IMG/VR virus record: IMGVR_UViG_3300032282_003429
Location: 1-28,123 of that record
DNA from: a virus
DNA length: 28,123 nt
Strand: one strand, 5' to 3'
Shown: piece after piece, positions 3,216-17,129 of the stretch
How positions within the stretch are numbered: the first letter of the stretch is position 1
Layout: every line of letters begins with the position of its first letter
Position numbers and translations under genes: made by a program
The notes under the pieces: generated by a model
Databases searched by the model: none
What the model saw: the letters and a program-made list of their open reading frames with translations, nothing else
Told to the model about the DNA's origin: nothing

Positions 3216-3576
3216 AACTGCTGGTCGGGATCTCCACGCAACGACGCTGAAACTCGGCCTCTTTTATTTTGAGCTTTTCTCCCGGTTCAAATTTATACCA
3301 GCCAGCCTGATCCGGCCATTGAATGGCTAGCACGTATGGAACTCGTAAAACCTCCGCGGCCCTAATCCCCACTTCGACCGCATCTGCCGGTATTTCCTCA
3401 AATGCTCTAGGATCGCTCAGGATGGCCGTATGGCGGTATTCGACCGTCGCCAGTGCCTTGGCCTCCATTTTCTGTAAATCGACCAGAAGATAGTCTGCTG
3501 GGCCTTTGAGAGGCATCCATATGCAATGGACACCCCAAGTTTCCGCAAAAACGGATCTCAATTTTTCATCAAGCAC
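3178..3576 (-). CDS. PD-(D/E)XK-like small nuclease, tentative
   Basis: The last gene of the leftward replication block. GTG 3576 overlaps the helicase stop by 8 bases and has AGGA about nine bases upstream. An ATG at 3603 is in frame but lacks a ribosome binding site. The layout suggests a restriction-like nuclease fold: an N-terminal Glu (FAETWG), PADYLLVD with an Asp after a hydrophobic turn, ATVEYRH giving an E-x-R in place of E-x-K, then VPYVLAIQW as a core strand. The Lys-to-Arg substitution and overall divergence make the activity uncertain. It could be a replication-associated endonuclease or an inactive relative. Confidence 0.6.
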   Translation of the reverse strand: MLDEKLRSVFAETWGVHCIWMPLKGPADYLLVDLQKMEAKALATVEYRHTAILSDPRAFEEIPADAVEVGIRAAEVLRVPYVLAIQWPDQAGWYKFEPGEKLKIKEAEFQRRCVEIPTSSFKPFLKKGPTLP

Positions 3577-5059
3577 GGGCGAAGATCCTGTCCTGCCGGT
3601 CATACAGCATATATGTGGCGCCTAAATTCCCTGTTTCCGGCTGGTAACGGACCTTGCACACCCGGATAATGCTGGTGGAGCTCGTCTCCGGGTCGCCGGT
3701 GCGGGCCACAACGATGCCGTGATCCGCCTTATTGGCCCAATGCGAGCTATCGCTGACAGAATACAGGCTCAACTCTTCAGCATCGCGGTTACCGGCTGAT
3801 TTTGTTGGATGCGCCACTACAACAATGCAAACATCGTACTGCCGCCCGAACTTTTTCAGCGCTTGAATAGCCCTCCCAGTATATTCGGTCGCGCTTTCAT
3901 CGCCCCGCTTGGCATGCTCGATTTCGTTCCACGGATCGATCACGAACATTTTTACGCCGTGCCGGATCACCGCGACCTCCATGCGATCGAGCAGCCAATG
4001 AATATCGTGGACCTCATCGCTTGTCGCGTCTGGCGCGATAAAGTAAAAACGCCGCTCCATGAATTCATCGGGCGTGAGATCCATATCCGGCGATCCGACG
4101 CGCGATGACATGTGCTTGAAGATACGGGTCACCTGATCAGTTACATAAGGCTTTACGCGCATTTCGAAACTGGCGAGGCCGATGTTCCACTGGTGGAGAT
4201 ACGCCACCTGCGTCGCCATCTGAACCGTCCATGTCGATTTACCTTGGCCGGGAAAGCCAGTAACCACAACGAAACTTGGCGTATACAACATGAGCTTATC
4301 GTCCAGATCTTTGAAGCCGGTGCTGACCGGCACGAAGGCTGGCTCTGGTGGCAAATCGCTGTAACGGTAAACACCGCTGACCGGGTAAGGCTTTGCGTCG
4401 GCGATGATCTGCATAACGGCCTTCCGCCCGTGCTTTACCAGCACGTCATTGAAGTCCTTGCAGCCCTCTGGATATGTAACGAAAGAACACCGGATGCGAT
4501 CCAACCGACGCACTAGCTCTGCCGCAAGCCTGCGCCCGGGCCCGTCGGCATCGGTGGCGATGATGATCCGCGTCACCGCCTTCAGCGCCGTCCAGTCGTT
4601 AAGCAGGAAAGAATATTTATCGTCATCCTGCGGGTTGATATCAGACGTTCCCTCCGGCACCGCGATCAGATTGCCATGTGCATCGCGGGCTGGCGGCGCC
4701 CCATCTGGAACGCTCACAGCAAAAGGATAGCCCGCAGAAAGAACCGCCAAGCAATCCATTTCGCCTTCCGTGATCACAAGCGCATTGTCAGGCAGCGTTG
4801 GATCGTCGAGCACATCGGCATTGAAAAATACCTTCTTGGCCGCACCGGCCTTCTGCCAGAAGGTTTTTCCGGGGCCACGGTACTTCGCGCCAATCTCTTC
4901 GCCATTGCGAGTGAAGGGATAGACAAGAATTGTCCCGGCGCTATCTGGCTCTACCCCATCCTGCCCGCGCTTCGCGCTGTAGAGCCCCATAGCCACCGCT
5001 ATTTCCACGTCGATCTCCCGGCTTGCCAGCCAATCGAGGTGTTTTTCGCTGAGTGTCAT
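3569..5059 (-). CDS. Primase-helicase, Toprim plus RecA-like helicase (T7 gp4/Twinkle type)
   Basis: A 496-residue replication enzyme. Residues about 92-125 (ALVITEGEMDCLAVL) carry the Toprim glutamate E98, and IIIATDADGPG (166-175) is the Toprim DxD. Walker A is GFPGQGKST (268-276), the Walker B-like strand is KMFVIDPWNEI with D375, and CIVVVAHPTK (411-420) matches the following sensor strand of DnaB/gp4 helicases. It is expected to unwind DNA at the fork and prime the lagging strand. The usual N-terminal zinc domain is missing from this frame and is encoded just upstream in another frame. ATG 5059 has GGGAG eight bases upstream. Confidence 0.9.
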   Translation of the reverse strand: MTLSEKHLDWLASREIDVEIAVAMGLYSAKRGQDGVEPDSAGTILVYPFTRNGEEIGAKYRGPGKTFWQKAGAAKKVFFNADVLDDPTLPDNALVITEGEMDCLAVLSAGYPFAVSVPDGAPPARDAHGNLIAVPEGTSDINPQDDDKYSFLLNDWTALKAVTRIIIATDADGPGRRLAAELVRRLDRIRCSFVTYPEGCKDFNDVLVKHGRKAVMQIIADAKPYPVSGVYRYSDLPPEPAFVPVSTGFKDLDDKLMLYTPSFVVVTGFPGQGKSTWTVQMATQVAYLHQWNIGLASFEMRVKPYVTDQVTRIFKHMSSRVGSPDMDLTPDEFMERRFYFIAPDATSDEVHDIHWLLDRMEVAVIRHGVKMFVIDPWNEIEHAKRGDESATEYTGRAIQALKKFGRQYDVCIVVVAHPTKSAGNRDAEELSLYSVSDSSHWANKADHGIVVARTGDPETSSTSIIRVCKVRYQPETGNLGATYMLYDRQDRIFARA

Positions 5060-5261
5060 CTAGCAATCTCCCATCCGTCCAATTGCAATTGAAGCACCGA
5101 ACTCCTACGCCCGTCTCATCGATCCTGACGGACAAGCACTTATCGGCCTTCTTTTTTCTCGTGTGCGAACATTTCGGACATGTTGTTTTCCATGTGCCGC
5201 GGCTTAGTCCATTCCTTCCCGGCGATATTCCTAAATCCTCCAGCAGCTCGATGATCGACAT
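4941..5261 (-). CDS. Zinc-ribbon primase domain in a separate overlapping frame
   Basis: The frame encodes 106 residues. Residues 1-66 look like the CHC2/zinc-binding domain of phage primases: CPKC (28-31), a basic strand (HTRKKKADKCLSV), and CFNC (56-59) followed by the W-T-D-G seen in this family. This domain reads the priming template sequence. From about residue 67 the frame runs out of phase over the first 119 bases of the Toprim-helicase gene, giving a low-complexity basic tail. Either this is a separate small primase subunit, or a +1 shift near 5050 fuses the two, or one base is miscalled. It lies 45 bases downstream of the replication protein gene. Confidence 0.75.
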   Translation of the reverse strand: MSIIELLEDLGISPGRNGLSRGTWKTTCPKCSHTRKKKADKCLSVRIDETGVGVRCFNCNWTDGRLLDDTQRKTPRLAGKPGDRRGNSGGYGALQREARAGWGRAR

Positions 5262-5306
5262 GCAATTTTACCCTGCGTCTAATCGTTACATTTTTCCGAA
5301 TACGCA

Positions 5307-6056
5307 TTAGCAGAACCCTCCACCTATGCGGATCTTTTTTGCCGCCACGGGTTTGTAATCATCCTCGAAACGGCGTTGATTTAGAAACGTCACCGCCTGC
5401 GCGATGTAACGAGGATCGTCGGCCTGAGCGGCGTAGGCCAGCGTACCGACCATGATCGCATCATGCGATACGCCAGCATCGATCAGCTGGCTGTAGCTGC
5501 GCCATGCCTCGAACTTAGGATTGCCACCCTGCCGCTTGGGATATGCCGCCCAGAAGGCTTCAAACGCCGGTGAGTAATTTACAACCACACTGGCCTTCCG
5601 CTTGCGAGCCGGTTTCTGCTTTGGGGGGGCTATAGGGGGGTTATTATCTTTGATAGGTTCTATGATAGTATAGTGTGAACTGAGTTCACGCGAAGATGTC
5701 GTAGAGTTCACATCGGCGGCATCATCTGATTTCACATCGTGTGCTTCTAATTTCACATCACATGCGTCAGATTTCACATCGTCAGCGTCTGATTTCACAA
5801 GCTGATAGACGTTAAAAACGCGCCCTGAAACACCTGCTGCCCGGCTGCTTTTCCTTACAAGACCGATGTCAGCAAGGTGATTTACAATCGAAATCACATG
5901 CCGCCTGCTGATGCCAGCATCCTCCGCCAATTTCTCTTGCGACGGCCAACAGAAACCGTTCTCGTCGGCATAATTAGCCATGACCATCAGCACCACCTTA
6001 ACAGCAGGCGCTTTGGTTTTTTGCTTGATAGCCCAAGCCATGTAACTGAAACACAT
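5307..6056 (-). CDS. Winged-HTH replication initiator protein
   Basis: A 249-residue protein. The ATG at 6056 follows AGAGG; upstream in-frame codons to 6122 would run through operator-like repeats and are rejected. Residues 6-86 are an HTH_36-type domain (NGFCWPSQEKLAEDAGISRR, then HVISIVNHLADIGLV). A seven-residue repeat (VKSDADD, VKSDACD, VKLEAHD) spans about 87-115, then a disordered Pro/Lys linker. Residues 160-232 hold the replication-protein C-terminal signature (FEAFWAAYPKRQGG and a helical tail). Like lambda O, it probably binds the origin and recruits a helicase. The heptad repeat comes from DNA iterons lying inside the gene. Confidence 0.8.
   Translation of the reverse strand: MCFSYMAWAIKQKTKAPAVKVVLMVMANYADENGFCWPSQEKLAEDAGISRRHVISIVNHLADIGLVRKSSRAAGVSGRVFNVYQLVKSDADDVKSDACDVKLEAHDVKSDDAADVNSTTSSRELSSHYTIIEPIKDNNPPIAPPKQKPARKRKASVVVNYSPAFEAFWAAYPKRQGGNPKFEAWRSYSQLIDAGVSHDAIMVGTLAYAAQADDPRYIAQAVTFLNQRRFEDDYKPVAAKKIRIGGGFC
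5641..5799. other. Candidate replication origin with iterons
   Basis: Inside the replication gene, TTCACATC occurs at 5707-5714, 5731-5738, 5752-5759 and 5773-5780, with TTCACA at 5794-5799. The spacing is 24, 21, 21 and 21 bases, about two helical turns. A perfect 15-base palindrome, GTGAACT-G-AGTTCAC (5675-5689), supplies further TTCAC cores in both orientations. Next to it, 5641-5676 is about 75% A+T by my count, suitable for melting. In lambda the origin has the same arrangement: iterons in the middle of gene O with an AT-rich flank. The function here is inferred from that architecture. Confidence 0.6.
5707..5799. repeat. 21-24 base direct repeats (TTCACATC iterons)
   Basis: Four full TTCACATC copies and one TTCACA copy in direct orientation. 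The context is best kept as TCTGATTTCACATCG. In the protein they give the heptad V-K-S-D-A-x-D, so selection on the protein, on the DNA, or on both could maintain them. Confidence 0.8.
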
Positions 6057-6065
6057 CGTGGATAA
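6057..6065 (-). promoter_or_regulatory. DnaA-box-like site
   Basis: Read on the minus strand the sequence is TTATCCACG, eight of nine positions of the DnaA consensus TTATNCACA. It lies directly upstream of the replication gene's ATG. A single box could occur by chance, but the position next to the initiator gene is suggestive. Confidence 0.4.
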
Positions 6066-6068
6066 CCT

Positions 6069-6082
6069 CTTGCAAATGCAAG
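6069..6082. repeat. Perfect 14-base inverted repeat, possible operator
   Basis: CTTGCA-AA-TGCAAG is a 6-base dyad with a 2-base centre in the leader of the replication gene. The half-site TTGCAAG recurs in the divergent gap at 1497-1503. It may be a binding site for one of the small HTH proteins. Confidence 0.4.
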
Positions 6083-6104
6083 GCATCCCGATGTAAAAGG
6101 GGAG

Positions 6105-6149
6105 TGCCATTGCTCGTATCAATGGTCTGCCATTGCTCGCCTCAATGGT
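6105..6149. repeat. Tandem pair of dyad sites upstream of replication gene
   Basis: Two 22-base copies (6105-6126 and 6128-6149) differ at only two positions. Each contains the dyad CCATTG-N7-CAATGG. The centre-to-centre distance is 23 bases. The pair lies in the 139-base gap between the DnaA-like gene and the replication gene, where an operator or further iterons would be expected. The rest of the gap holds TGTAAA (6092-6097), the palindrome at 6069 and the DnaA-like box. Confidence 0.65.
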
Positions 6150-6195
6150 TTCAATCGAGGTCCGCCGGTTCGTCGCTGGCGGGCCTCAACTTTTT

Positions 6196-6690
6196 TCAGA
6201 CTACGCTCAACTCCCTGCCGTTGGCAAGACGCGATGCATGCGCTCTGATGCCATGCATCAATGTCGTATGATCGACGTTGGCAATACGAGCAAGGCGGTT
6301 CACGCTGTAATCATGCTCGACATAGGCGCGGAACCAAACTTCGTGACGCGCCTGCGCGACTGGCTTCCACCGCCTGCGACCTTCAATAGTCTCTGGCGGA
6401 ATATCCAGCTTATCCGCAACCTCATGCAAAATGCGGCGATAGTAAATGGCACTAGCCAATTTGCGCTTTTTGATGGCGATTTCTGCCGGATCAAATTTGA
6501 ATTCGTTACCAGCAGCCAGACCTGCCATTACCTCAACGGTGCGGGCAGGCACGACGCCAGTCGGCCTAGCAACACCGCCCGCGGCAATTTGTACCTTTTC
6601 TGGTACAACACCTTTGCGAACCGGCTCAGGGCCTTTCAGGCGCGTTTTGACCGCTTTGTAATGCTCCAAAAGTTCGTCGTAGTAAGTCAT
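6196..6690 (-). CDS. DnaA domain IV-like DNA-binding protein
   Basis: A 164-residue protein. Residues about 105-155 match the DnaA C-terminal DNA-binding domain: an N-terminal helix (ARHEVWFRAYVEHDYSVNRL), then ARIANVDHTTLMHGIRAH, which resembles the DnaA signature RDHSTV followed by a basic helix. The AAA+ domain of DnaA is absent. The N-terminal half is basic and probably partly disordered. It may bind DnaA-box-like sequences, either at the phage origin or to interfere with host initiation. The gene overlaps RusA by 65 bases and precedes the operator-like repeats. The ATG at 6690 follows AAGGGAAAA. Confidence 0.75.
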   Translation of the reverse strand: MTYYDELLEHYKAVKTRLKGPEPVRKGVVPEKVQIAAGGVARPTGVVPARTVEVMAGLAAGNEFKFDPAEIAIKKRKLASAIYYRRILHEVADKLDIPPETIEGRRRWKPVAQARHEVWFRAYVEHDYSVNRLARIANVDHTTLMHGIRAHASRLANGRELSVV

Positions 6691-11697: not shown

Positions 11698-13503
11698 TCA
11701 ATGCTTGGCTATCTTCAGCGCAGTAACGATAGCATCGTCTGGCATAGAAAGCATGTTTGATGTGCGGTGGCTCAATTCTTTGCGGGTCTGAGCCACCTCG
11801 CGGGAAATACTTTCCGCGCCTCCACCGACGCGACCTCCAGATTTGCGGCCAACACGACCGCCATTGGCTTGTCCAGTTGGAATTTGATCTGGTGTGATCC
11901 AATCAAATTCATGACCCGGCTGGCTTTCGAGCCGTTGTTGAGCTGCTTGTGCCTGCTCAACTGCGAGGCCAACCGGATAAACAGATTTTTTGATAGCTGT
12001 TGTAGGCACATACCTTCCTGCTTGAGCCAATTTACCAGCACCATATGCTAGTTTACCTGCAATGCGCGGGGAGGAAACTATGGCTCCAGATGCAGCTAAA
12101 GCCACTGCTGTTGCAAAGGCTGTTGGATTTTGCATCAATGCAGCAGCCGTAATTCCGCCAGCCCCGGCCACGCCCTCAACAGCCGCTCTTATCCCGCTTG
12201 GACCTGCGGCATGCAAAGCAGCACCAGCTACCCTGTATGGAATTGTTGGATCAATCTGACCAACAATTTCAATGGCATTCGGCCCTTGGGGAATGCCAAG
12301 AGATTTAATTGTTTTTGCCAATTGAACATTGGCGCTTGTTTTATTGCCAGCACCAAGTGTTTTCTGCAAATTTTGCAATTCATCAAGCATATATTGATAG
12401 TCATCCATGAGCGCTGCATACTCTGGAGACATTGTTTTCAATGTATCGCGGACACCAGCCGCAACGTCTTTATAAGCCTGCCTTGCTTCTGCTGACAAAC
12501 TTGTATCATACATACGAAAATGCAGATGCTTTTTAAGCTCATCTAAACCTTGTAATGTATTTTTCCCCTGTCCGGGCGGAAGGCCTTCGAATTCTTTGCG
12601 AATTAAATCTTCAATTTCTCCCAATGTTTTTCTTGCATCTGGAAATAACTTGGTTTGCGAACCCCTTACTCCTCCAAAATTATCCCATGAATTTTGAAGG
12701 CTTTGATTGATTATTGAATAATCAACGGGCTGATTGGCAGCTCCGGTAATTTGTCCTCGCGTATTAACCCAATCTTGAGATTTTTCTTTGCGGACAGTAT
12801 CGATCGCATGACTAATATCCTGCGACAATTGAACGGGATTGCCGCCACCAGTGTAAAATTCATTAAATGCTTCTCTGGCTCCGCGTATTTTGTTAGCGCC
12901 TGCTTCAAACGCCTTTTGGAAAGCAACTGGGGCCACACCAGTTAACAATGATTGTGCCCCACGGGTTAGAGATGGCGCATATTTGCCAACCTCTTTCCCA
13001 ACCTGCACAACAGCCTGCGCCGGGTCCATAGCGCTTGCCGCTACCTTTCCCGCTGTTCCAAGAAAAGTACCAGCCCGTCCCATGGTACTGGCAGTTTGAG
13101 CTAATTTTCCCATTGGACCAGCGGCGAGCGAAACAAAACCAACCGGATGTTCTGCAAACGCCTTTTTCCAAGGCGCAGCAGATGTCGCTAGCTCATATGC
13201 AGAATGTGCAAATTGTTTATTTTTTTCTTCTTCTTCTGGACTTTGTGCTCCGCCAAGAGCCCCATAACCCAATGATCCAAGACGATATCCAGTATCTACG
13301 ATGCCCTTACCCAGACCTGTAACTGTCCCAACTGGGTCAATTATAGCACGCCCAAGACCTTTTGCCGTATTTACAAAATCATCAGTATAATTTTTAGTTG
13401 CGCGGAGAAAAACATCCTCCAACGGCATGTTTGCATATTCTTCTGTTGACTTTGGTGTATCATCGACAACACCAAGTTTGGAAAAATCTACTTGATCAGC
13501 CAT
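11698..13503 (-). CDS. Probable internal virion/ejection protein (601 aa)
   Basis: Begins in a TAATG overlap with the 1208-residue protein. The N-terminal third alternates Gly-rich, weakly hydrophobic helices (VGTVTGLGKGIVDTGYRLGS, VSLAAGPMGKLAQTASTMGR). The middle has long charged helices with a coiled-coil character. The C-terminal third is hydrophobic and Ala-rich, followed by a Gly-Arg linker (NGGRVGRKSGGRVGG) and a short helix (DDAIVTALKIAK). This matches internal or ejection proteins of podoviruses that cross or line the injection channel. Assignment is by composition and position after the muramidase-bearing protein. Confidence 0.6.
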   Translation of the reverse strand: MADQVDFSKLGVVDDTPKSTEEYANMPLEDVFLRATKNYTDDFVNTAKGLGRAIIDPVGTVTGLGKGIVDTGYRLGSLGYGALGGAQSPEEEEKNKQFAHSAYELATSAAPWKKAFAEHPVGFVSLAAGPMGKLAQTASTMGRAGTFLGTAGKVAASAMDPAQAVVQVGKEVGKYAPSLTRGAQSLLTGVAPVAFQKAFEAGANKIRGAREAFNEFYTGGGNPVQLSQDISHAIDTVRKEKSQDWVNTRGQITGAANQPVDYSIINQSLQNSWDNFGGVRGSQTKLFPDARKTLGEIEDLIRKEFEGLPPGQGKNTLQGLDELKKHLHFRMYDTSLSAEARQAYKDVAAGVRDTLKTMSPEYAALMDDYQYMLDELQNLQKTLGAGNKTSANVQLAKTIKSLGIPQGPNAIEIVGQIDPTIPYRVAGAALHAAGPSGIRAAVEGVAGAGGITAAALMQNPTAFATAVALAASGAIVSSPRIAGKLAYGAGKLAQAGRYVPTTAIKKSVYPVGLAVEQAQAAQQRLESQPGHEFDWITPDQIPTGQANGGRVGRKSGGRVGGGAESISREVAQTRKELSHRTSNMLSMPDDAIVTALKIAKH

Positions 13504-16500
13504 TAGTCGATATACTCCGTATCAGGCACAATCTTGTCGCCAACTTGTTTGCGTCCTTTGAATATAAAAGTTTTTCCGTTATTTGGATCAATATATTTCC
13601 AACCTTCATGGAAATGCGAAAGGCCTACGCCTCTTACAAGCTCTCCAGCAACTGGTGTGTTAGCTTTAGCCTCTTCAACAAATTCTTTGATTGTATTGCC
13701 CTTATCATCAAATTCACGAAGCCATTTACGAACATCATTGGTTTTGATGTATGGAGTTCCGCCTTTACTTGCGACAAAATCATCCCACGCCTCTGTTTTG
13801 GCCTCGTCGTAAGCCAATTTTCCAAGCATAGCGCCAATGATGTTTCTGTTTGCTTTTGCAAGATTTTGAACAGAACCTTGACCTTTAGCAACAAGCTTCA
13901 AGTCAACATTTGAAATTTGCGGTCCAATTTTGTCCTTCATGCCGCTATCAAGAATTGAGTTTGCAAAAAACTTCATAGCAGTTTGAACATCAACAGCCTG
14001 ATCAATTTCTTCGCTACCAGCAATGCCAAGGCTAGCCATGGTGTTAATCAATGTAGATTTGAATTCAGCAAATGCACCAGTTTCTGCCTTCTTCAAGGTT
14101 TCTGCAAGGCCATCTAGCATCATGTGACGAGAACCAAAACCTGATTGCAACTCGCTAAAACTCTTGTCTGTATCTTGAACAGAATTTGTTTGCGCTTCCT
14201 CAGCCTTAATTAAAGCCGCACCGCGGGCCGCAAGTTCTTGCGATCCGGGTATTGCAACAGTTTCTCCATTTGGAAGCTTGATGCCATTTTTGCCATAGCG
14301 ATCCCAAAGGGCGTTTGCCTGATCAAGATACATTTTCCTGAGGTCTGCTGTTGTTGCACGACCAGCTTTTTCATAAAGCTTGTATGGATTTTGATCATCC
14401 GGCAGTTGATTAAATATTTCTGCAGCACCTGTTGGTTTTGGTTGAGCAGGTGTTTCAGCTTGCGTTGCTGGCGCTGTTTGACTTGGAGCAGAACTTGTTT
14501 CGATTTGCTTACTGGGTGCAGACAAAGCAGGCGCGGCAGTTGATGCCGCGGCAGGAGGCGGAGCGACACCAGTTGAAGGCTGTGTACCATCAGACGGGGG
14601 AGGGGTCACTCCAGAAGGCACCGGCGTTGGTGCTGTAGTACCCTGAGCGGGAGCTGCCATAGATGCGCCACCAGCAATACCGGCCCTCATGGCTTCATCT
14701 TGAATAGATTGGTATTCTGGCGGAAGTGGCTTTCCCTCAGCCTTATAAAACTGGATCATAGGCAGAACAGCCATATACAACTGCCTAATTTGTCCAATGC
14801 GGGCAACATCAACATTGCCAAGAGCAGCCTGTGCCTGAGCACGCTGAGAAGCAACTTCAGAGGCAATTTTCTGCTGTTCAAATGGCAGCATTTGCTGGTT
14901 GTAGTAGGTCTGCATACCGACTTTGCCAGCCTCACCAAGGTTCACGCCAAAGAACGGCGAACGACCGGCCATCATGGCAAATCCAGCAGACATAAGAGCG
15001 CGTTGCATGTCGGGCGACATATCACTGTTAGTAATGCGCTCAATCAAATTGCGTTTGTGCTCATTAGATCCGGGTTTAACACCCTGAGATGTGCTTGATA
15101 CAAGGTTGCTAACAAGACCGGCAATGCCAGACGATTTTTCTGGCGTATCAGCAGTTGGATTTACTACAACATTGCCCAACCCAGCCTCTGTTGGTTGGGC
15201 AGAAATTTCTTTCGACAATGACTGCATGCGATTGTGCCATGGACCGGCAAAATCACCATATCTTTCTGGGTTCTTTTGCACGAGGCTCCCAAGGAAATCG
15301 CTATACAGTCCAAGCAATTTCTGAGGATCACCGCCGGATTGAGCGATGAGCTGACGAGCGCGGCCCGGCCCAGATGTTACAGAAATATCCAAGGCAACCT
15401 TGGCAAGGTTTGGATCTTTGGCAGCGAGAACATCGCCATTGATTGGCTTCCAATAATCATTAACGTAAATGTTTCTCGCCTCATCTTGCGTGAGTTTTTT
15501 TACGTCAATGTTTGGGTGAGCAGCTTGATTGATGCCAAAATTGGTCGGCGTTCCATTTGTGTCTTTTTCCAAAAGACCGCCCTCATGGCGAAGAACCATG
15601 TTCAATGCATCATTAAGAAAAGGAGAAGGCTCAGGTTTTGGAGGCGGAACAACGCCACCCTGAGCTGGGACAACTGGTGTATCGTCTTCTTCTTTTGCGA
15701 TAGAAGGGACAACGCCAGCATCAGCATAACCATGGCGAACCATACCGCCTGAAGCTCTGCGATATTCAGAGGCCGTAGGGTCTGGAAACAGCGTTTCTGT
15801 TACATCACCATAAAGGCCCTTCAAGTTTTTGCTGAAAGCTGCCTTTTGCTCATCAGACATGCCCCTGATTTGCGCCCATGTATCATCAAGGCCTGTATCT
15901 TGTGCTGCTTTTGGCGGGTCTGGAAGCGTAGAACCCGGCTTCATATGCTTTTCAGTTTCTCCACTTGGCACATAACTCATGCCTGTAGAGAAATCTTGAT
16001 ATGGGATCATGCCCAGACCGCCTTGGGCAAAGTGCTGGCGCTCCATCGATGGGGCTACAACGCCGCCCATGTAGGCAGTTCCGCCGTCCATTTTATGATG
16101 TCGAGATGGAATAGCCTTGTTGTAATCAACGGCCTTCAGGCCACCAATTTCAGAAACAGCCTCTGGATGACGACCTTCGACCTCTTGCGCGATCAGGCCA
16201 ATTTCTGTCTTTGGGCTTCCCTTGAAATTGTATTTGTAAATGTTTTGGCCGTCGTGCGTCTTGCCGACCGGCTCGATATTTTCCTTAAGCCGCTCATCAG
16301 ACCACGGGATAGACGCCATGGCAGTGCCAAAGCCAAGGAGCTGAGATCCAACATTTGGTCCCGGCATTGTTTGTGTGCCGGTACCACCCGCACCAGCGCC
16401 AATGCCTTCCGCGATGTTTGCAAAATACTGCGCCATCTGGAACGGATAGGCCTGTTGTTGCAGGAATTGATTGTACATGGCCTGATCATAGGCCTGTTGC

Positions 16501-17129
16501 GTGGCCTGTTGCTGAGCGCCAGCTGCCATTTGGGCCTGAGCACCAGAAAGCATGGATTGCTGGGTGGCGCCGCCAAGACCTTGAAGCATTGAGGCTGTAC
16601 CAGCTTCACGGGCGTACTGGTTTTGCAGCCCCGACATAGCTTGATTGTAGCCAGTATTGTAAACATTTGCCATGTTGGCGCCACCGGCAAGACCTTGCTG
16701 ACGCGCCAATTCAGACATGGCTATTCCGCTGCGATCGCCACCAAATGCCCCCTGCTGAATAGCCCCAGACTTCAAGGCTTGCTGTTGCTGCGCGTTTTGC
16801 TCAAGAATATTAGCCTGAGTGGCTGCAGCGACGTTAGACAGGTATGGCGACATATACTGGTTTACATCGCCAGCGCTAATTGGCCTCGCTGCTTGCGTCG
16901 CGTATTGCGTTGCAGCATTATAAAAAGGCAACGCTGCGCCTTGAGCGTTGTTTACATTTTGAATTCCAGAGATCTGGGTAGGGTTCAGACCCGCGACCAT
17001 CTCTCCGCCGTAAGATTGGAATGGCTGCTGCGAGGCGGCATAACCCATTTGGGTCGCCTTCCGATAAGCATCCATCACCTCTGCGGGCGGCTTATAAGAC
17101 GATGTTGTTGTTGAACCCTTGCTGCCCAT
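13503..17129 (-). CDS. Large virion protein with internal S74-type domain and GH108 muramidase domain
   Basis: A 1208-residue protein. Residues 1-270 are Gln/Ala/Gly-rich helices. Residues 277-340 carry the intramolecular chaperone/peptidase S74 motif: SDERLKENI with S277 and K282, and a following EIGLIAQEVE strand-helix. Residues about 505-640 are a GH108-like muramidase: LRHEGGLL with E516, then TPTNFGI, and a W-H-N tail. Residues 650-1208 are helical with a Pro/Thr-rich linker (about 830-930). It probably acts during DNA entry by opening the cell wall. The S74 element is normally C-terminal in fibres, so its central position is unusual. GAAGG precedes the ATG. Confidence 0.78.
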   Translation of the reverse strand: MGSKGSTTTSSYKPPAEVMDAYRKATQMGYAASQQPFQSYGGEMVAGLNPTQISGIQNVNNAQGAALPFYNAATQYATQAARPISAGDVNQYMSPYLSNVAAATQANILEQNAQQQQALKSGAIQQGAFGGDRSGIAMSELARQQGLAGGANMANVYNTGYNQAMSGLQNQYAREAGTASMLQGLGGATQQSMLSGAQAQMAAGAQQQATQQAYDQAMYNQFLQQQAYPFQMAQYFANIAEGIGAGAGGTGTQTMPGPNVGSQLLGFGTAMASIPWSDERLKENIEPVGKTHDGQNIYKYNFKGSPKTEIGLIAQEVEGRHPEAVSEIGGLKAVDYNKAIPSRHHKMDGGTAYMGGVVAPSMERQHFAQGGLGMIPYQDFSTGMSYVPSGETEKHMKPGSTLPDPPKAAQDTGLDDTWAQIRGMSDEQKAAFSKNLKGLYGDVTETLFPDPTASEYRRASGGMVRHGYADAGVVPSIAKEEDDTPVVPAQGGVVPPPKPEPSPFLNDALNMVLRHEGGLLEKDTNGTPTNFGINQAAHPNIDVKKLTQDEARNIYVNDYWKPINGDVLAAKDPNLAKVALDISVTSGPGRARQLIAQSGGDPQKLLGLYSDFLGSLVQKNPERYGDFAGPWHNRMQSLSKEISAQPTEAGLGNVVVNPTADTPEKSSGIAGLVSNLVSSTSQGVKPGSNEHKRNLIERITNSDMSPDMQRALMSAGFAMMAGRSPFFGVNLGEAGKVGMQTYYNQQMLPFEQQKIASEVASQRAQAQAALGNVDVARIGQIRQLYMAVLPMIQFYKAEGKPLPPEYQSIQDEAMRAGIAGGASMAAPAQGTTAPTPVPSGVTPPPSDGTQPSTGVAPPPAAASTAAPALSAPSKQIETSSAPSQTAPATQAETPAQPKPTGAAEIFNQLPDDQNPYKLYEKAGRATTADLRKMYLDQANALWDRYGKNGIKLPNGETVAIPGSQELAARGAALIKAEEAQTNSVQDTDKSFSELQSGFGSRHMMLDGLAETLKKAETGAFAEFKSTLINTMASLGIAGSEEIDQAVDVQTAMKFFANSILDSGMKDKIGPQISNVDLKLVAKGQGSVQNLAKANRNIIGAMLGKLAYDEAKTEAWDDFVASKGGTPYIKTNDVRKWLREFDDKGNTIKEFVEEAKANTPVAGELVRGVGLSHFHEGWKYIDPNNGKTFIFKGRKQVGDKIVPDTEYID

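Follow-up and report, generated by a model that had tools for sequence, protein, structure and literature searches.

The initiator gene and its neighbours

The viral stretch analysed here (28,123 bp, hereafter the window) contained on its minus strand a replication initiator gene at 5307–6056, encoding 249 amino acids, whose start could be placed at the ATG at 6056 and end at 5307 by alignment with the MSMELMVKA starts of homologues. The protein matched the Pfam domain PF13730 (HTH_36) above the curated cut-off (1.4e-12, 47.7 bits against 25) and the PHROG profile phrog_270, "replication initiation protein", over nearly its full length (1.8e-43, ORF residues 23–262); by these two profile matches it is an HTH_36 / PHROG 270 phage replication initiator. 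A RepA_N domain (PF06970) gave no Pfam match in this protein, RepA-type N-terminal domains showing only weak fold similarity, and the RP-C domain (PF03428, RepC of repABC plasmids) stayed below its cut-off (13.3 bits against 24.4, E 0.07). A PDB sequence search with the initiator returned no match, and scanning viral contigs and genome contigs with single proteins gave no close homologue (>40% identity), so that conservation was assessed at the family level rather than between near relatives.

The protein is predicted to consist of a winged-HTH DNA-binding domain (residues 5–86, 5799–6044), a disordered linker (residues 92–160, 5577–5783) and a C-terminal helical domain (residues 163–233, 5358–5570), all on the minus strand. 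In the AlphaFold (AF2) model, which was built on a shallow alignment of seven sequences, pLDDT was mostly 74–90 over residues 1–70, below 50 throughout the linker and about 50–70 in the predicted C-terminal helices. Foldseek related the winged HTH to the N-terminal domains of initiators (4pql, 4pt7 and 5kbj) and to DnaD (2v79), all weakly, with E >0.001. Primosomal and replication PHROGs matched over the C-terminal part, and we infer that this domain recruits the replicative helicase. Because the linker is predicted to be disordered, its sequence should be free to carry DNA signals.

Downstream of the initiator lie a zinc-ribbon ORF and then, at 3569–5059 on the minus strand, a phage primase-helicase (Toprim + DnaB_C-like; phrog_239 9.9e-84, DnaB_C 5.3e-11), which is likely the helicase loaded at the origin discussed below. 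The zinc-ribbon ORF (4941–5261, minus strand) and the beginning of the primase-helicase gene share DNA in different frames, as do the corresponding ORFs (4694–5110 and 4938–6470) of L077, a 55%-identical relative, and the two ORFs possibly represent a split zinc-binding domain joined by frameshifting. Just upstream of the initiator, the product of a minus-strand ORF at 6196–6690 contains the C-terminal domain of bacterial DnaA (2.4e-9); L077 and a further relative, L078, have a similar ORF ahead of the equivalent region. Two 22-bp direct repeats, TGCCATTGCTCG and TCAATGGT, 91% identical and 23 bp apart, lie just upstream of the initiator start at 6105–6149 and are a candidate operator.

Iterons, palindrome and weak duplex inside the gene

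An earlier note on this DNA had placed a lambda-like origin candidate inside the replication gene, and its repeat coordinates, its palindrome at 5675–5689 and its flank of about 75% A+T (75% over 5641–5676) were all exact. The repeat TTCACATC occurs exactly at 5707, 5731, 5752 and 5773, with TTCACA at 5794. Read in the gene sense, that is, on the minus strand, the core of the array is GTGAA, which is found at CDS nt 259, 280, 301, 322, 346 and 368 and is followed by its inverse, TTCAC, at 378, giving six direct sites at a pitch of 21, 21, 21, 24 and 22 bp and a depth of about 260–380 bp inside the coding sequence. The iteron DNA encodes residues from about 86 to 128, almost wholly linker, and the proposal that the iterons fall between the winged HTH and the C-terminal domain was borne out by the domain layout from Pfam, PHROG and AF2; most iterons and the AT-rich element are contained in the linker DNA.

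The first five direct copies, all on the minus strand, are half-sites that lack a second, matching half: TGTGAA(ATC) at 5794–5799, GATGTGAA at 5773–5780, 5752–5759 and 5731–5738, and GATGTGAA(C) at 5707–5714. The sixth copy, CGTGAAC, with GTGAA at 5685–5689, lies 22 bp from the fifth and forms with its inverted partner a full palindromic site, GTGAAC-N3-GTTCAC (5675–5689), of a class also present in other initiator genes. This 22-bp step is not divisible by three and shifts the sixth copy into a different frame, where it encodes R-E-L and not V-K/N.

The regularity of this DNA exceeded what the encoded protein would demand. The spaced pair TTCACATC-N13-TTCACA occurred three times in the window, all in the array, while shuffles expect 0.01, and GTGAACTGAGTTCAC at 5675–5689 was the sole match in the window even with one mismatch allowed (expected 0.04). 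When the initiator protein was recoded with the phage's own codon usage, five TGTGAA appeared in 0 of 20,000 recodings and GTGAAC-N3-GTTCAC in 35 of 20,000; furthermore, each of the five valines in the array is encoded by GTG, although this is the Val codon that the phage uses least (19%). DnaA-box-like sites were not enriched.

The segment 5640–5674, which abuts the palindrome and carries TAGAACCTAT on the minus strand, came out of a nearest-neighbour scan as the least stable 35-bp duplex anywhere in the 28,123-bp record and is a candidate DNA unwinding element, so that the AT-rich flank described beside the iterons coincides with the weakest duplex of the record. Compared with synonymous shuffles, the stability of the window linker gave p = 0.013.

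Site design in related initiators

Two routes were taken to relatives, one through the motif and one through protein similarity. For the first, IMG/VR was scanned for two copies of GTGAACNNNGTTCAC no more than 24 bp apart, the palindrome being a specific probe and the triple TGTGAA pattern recovering mostly unrelated repeats. The duplicated palindrome was found in 22 IMG/VR stretches, 17 of them with the sites in initiator-type ORFs, following a winged HTH, and the 15 distinct ORFs among these 17 all matched replication-initiation or helicase-loader PHROGs. Among the remaining stretches, three held one and the same collagen-like protein, L169 had no recognisable gene, and L181 carried its sites beyond a winged-HTH ORF: there, at 925–1030, GTGAAC-N3-GTTCAC sites lie outside coding sequence, right after the ORF and next to a perfect DnaA box, TTATCCACA. 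The duplicated pattern was present in one of 385 alphaproteobacterial genomes, again in an HTH_36 initiator, and in none of 369 genomes of the Aliivibrio class, and a reversed control pattern was found in neither set.

Across the motif-found initiators together with L264, 49 full sites were distributed over phases 0, 1 and 2 as 19, 30 and 0, phase 2 being apparently forbidden because an in-frame TGA stop would arise. Copies 22–23 bp apart switch frame within one gene (0, 1, 0, 1 in L166, for example), and in relatives these DNA sites are translated as VNxVH or GEPxSP. Since relatives change the amino acids and the reading frame yet keep the site, it is the DNA site that is conserved and not the peptide. 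An S/T-x-R motif at the start of the recognition helix was found in most palindrome carriers and also in non-carriers.

For the second route, relatives were chosen by protein similarity and not by motif, comprising phages, prophages and 31 of 150 genomes of one order; L264 was the single motif-found gene in this set, and the picture was unchanged without it. With genes treated as independent throughout, DNA 7-mer repeats beyond a synonymous shuffle (p ≤ 0.01) were found in 24 of 44 linkers by a test that is blind to degenerate sites and leaves about half of unselected linkers below significance, whereas the same test was positive in 0 of 43 winged-HTH parts, 0 of 41 C-terminal parts and 4 of 120 other ORFs. 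After removal of near copies, 22 bp was the commonest repeated-7-mer spacing above the null (18 of 38 initiators against a null of 1.8), and a 5-bp spacer marked the peak of inverted repeats with 5-bp arms in the 38 initiators (45 against 11.8, z 9.6). The sequence of the sites varied by subgroup within a constant 15-bp geometry, as in GTGAA-N5-TTCAC, GTGCA-N5-TGCAC, CTGAA-N5-TTCAG and GTGTC-N5-GACAC. At the family level the iteron DNA is conserved beyond the need of the protein, the opposite of the pattern that the earlier note had named as counting against its reading, namely heptad residues kept while synonymous sites vary freely.

The weak duplex followed the same distribution. The weakest 35-bp duplex of the gene fell within the linker in 36 of the 38 initiators (expected 13.8, p 5e-14), and the weakest linker duplex lay below the stability predicted by synonymous recoding (mean z 2.0). 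GAACC at a spacing of 10–13 bp was six times as dense within linkers as elsewhere and occurred in more than one frame in some genes; such repeats were seen in the AT-rich part of the linkers of L161, L206, L009, L208 and others, again in more than one reading frame. These GAACC repeats could possibly be a second origin element, that is, unwinding repeats.

Comparison with known in-gene origins and reading of 5640–5799

Origins inside initiator genes are already established for lambda, SPP1 oriL, pSK41 Rep and RepC, and the window element joins this known kind. Phage lambda, used as a positive control, gave an array p = 0.003 in its O gene, and the weakest 35-mer of O (39125–39159) lies just past iteron 4, which ends at 39118. 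In both systems the initiator gene carries iterons midway along its length, followed directly downstream by an AT-rich element; the lambda iterons, with 5-bp arms and a 5-bp spacer (CCCTC-AAAAC-GAGGG) at a pitch of 20–24 bp, share the 5-5-5 form of the window class, and lambda O and the window protein both match PHROGs 391, 678 and 345. The iteron sequences differ, however, as does the helicase route, which is a neighbouring phage primase-helicase in the window and lambda P with host DnaB in lambda. The Pfam lambda-O family (PF04492, Phage_rep_O) had no match in the window protein, while lambda O itself scored 5.7e-36, and hhalign gave no significant match between lambda O and the family profile. 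The description "lambda-like" therefore holds for the design and geometry but not for membership of this Pfam family.

Similar arrangements are known from plasmids and other phages. The Rep protein of pSK41 (RepA_N) uses a winged-HTH N-terminus to bind Rep boxes located centrally in the gene that encodes it, its linker being dispensable and its C-terminal domain recruiting replication proteins (PMC5703833). In the chimeric Rep of pPR9, a PF13730 N-terminus and origin region stand in place of the RepA_N counterpart, and the rep region replicates autonomously (PMC5703833). Both resemble the window in having a winged-HTH initiator with sites in its own gene, and pPR9 also shares the PF13730 domain type, but they are Gram-positive plasmids with other site sequences; the 7-mer array test was negative for pPR9 rep, the sole PF13730 rep gene whose replication has been tested in published work. 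SPP1 oriL, which lies inside the gene of the initiator gp38 and has direct repeats and an AT-rich unwinding element (PMC6316719), is like the window in layout and belongs to a different phage group. In the repABC plasmid p42d of Rhizobium etli, oriV lies within the initiator gene repC, where silent mutations in the A+T-rich part abolish replication (PMC3155836); this origin, unlike the window, has no iterons. A candidate origin in an HTH_36 gene of a Tardiphaga sp. 709 plasmid (L298, 2486–3166) has three direct half-sites ATGCCGCA at a 23-bp pitch, one 5-5-5 palindrome (CCGCA-AGCTT-TGCGG) and AT-rich TAGAACCTAT repeats, in the same order as the window and with TAGAACCTAT common to both, but its core sequence differs and its array p was about 0.07–0.11.

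With an array in excess of coding constraint, conserved independently of frame, adjoining a weak duplex and set within this domain layout, the segment 5640–5799 is very probably the replication origin of the phage, located where the phage's own initiator gene encodes the linker. By analogy with lambda, SPP1 and pSK41, binding, melting, helicase recruitment and the start of replication would all take place there. The winged-HTH domain would bind the GTGAA half-sites, with an initiator dimer probably sitting on the palindrome, whose half-sites are 10 bp apart, one helical turn, and with a head-to-tail row of subunits on the direct half-sites, whose pitch of about 21–22 bp, two turns, would keep them on the same face of the helix. 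The assembled complex might then strain and melt the adjoining weak duplex at 5640–5674, and the C-terminal domain could bring in the phage primase-helicase encoded just downstream. In this record, which is possibly incomplete, GC skew did not switch at 5.7 kb, and its local turn near 7 kb falls where gene direction changes; because the sign of the skew follows the gene strand, it neither supports nor refutes the origin. Points that count against the origin reading are the half-site form of the five direct copies, the absence of close homologues in the scans and the 7-mer test, which about half of the unselected relatives and pPR9 rep fail.

Other explanations of the array appear improbable. 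The one with slightly the better chance, itself small, is an autoregulatory operator, through which the initiator would bind its own gene as a repressor or transcriptional roadblock instead of starting replication. The protein does have a winged HTH, with CRP-type domains and MarR-like folds among its weak matches, and autoregulation may coexist with origin function; however, the array lies about 260–380 bp into the coding sequence and not at a promoter, it adjoins the least stable duplex of the record, an arrangement with parallels in lambda and 36 of 38 relatives, and the family is annotated as replication initiators. Marginally less credible is a protein-level repeat, in which a low-complexity DVKSDAx heptad linker was kept for the protein or arose by recent tandem duplication, the regularity of the DNA being a by-product. 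Repetitive linkers occur in many proteins, and the five phase-0 copies, mostly seven residues apart, translate as L-V-K in the first case and D-V-K/N in the other four, but the spacer codons have diverged around a letter-perfect core that uses the rarest Val codon, the sixth copy and the palindrome stand in a different frame, the sites of relatives yield VNxVH or GEPxSP and switch between frames inside one gene, and those of L181 lie outside its winged-HTH ORF. Sites for another factor, either a host regulator of CRP/LexA type, given that TGTGA/TCACA resembles CRP half-sites, or the DnaA-C-like protein encoded upstream at 6196–6690, are very improbable, since the palindrome spaces its TGTGA-/TCACA-type halves by N7 where CRP has N6, DnaA-box-like sites are not enriched, and the sites travel with the winged-HTH initiator gene across many different phages.

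The origin reading would place the probable origin of an uncultivated phage to about 160 bp and provides a clear case in which one DNA stretch encodes a protein linker and is at the same time a recognition site. It also suggests computational tests for such origins in many other phages, through frame-alternating sites, a weak duplex and synonymous excess. Beyond the window, we lean slightly towards the view that HTH_36-type initiators of phages and prophages, a large group, share one undescribed origin design in their linker DNA, with 15-bp 5-5-5 sites (GTGAA-N5-TTCAC in the window class) at about 22 bp that shift frame, followed by a weak duplex with GAACC at 10–13 bp, and that the DNA-binding half and the origin could move as one cassette. 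If this is true, the initiator gene could directly reveal the origin in many uncharacterised phages. No publication describing these sites was found within a partial coverage of the literature, and to that extent the family-wide site design may be undescribed so far.

The three relatives identified by the neighbouring helicase (L077–L079) have a different DNA-binding half. Between L077 (4035–4808) and L078 (4011–4808), two closely related phages, the gene preceding the primase-helicase retains the C-terminal half, whereas the N-terminal DNA-binding half is entirely different. This swap sits beside near-identical neighbours and resembles the pPR9 case, and the difference may represent a swappable DNA-binding/origin cassette. 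Elsewhere in the window, 13503–17129 (minus strand) encodes a 1208-aa protein with DNA-ejection-like, chaperone-like and endolysin-like parts.
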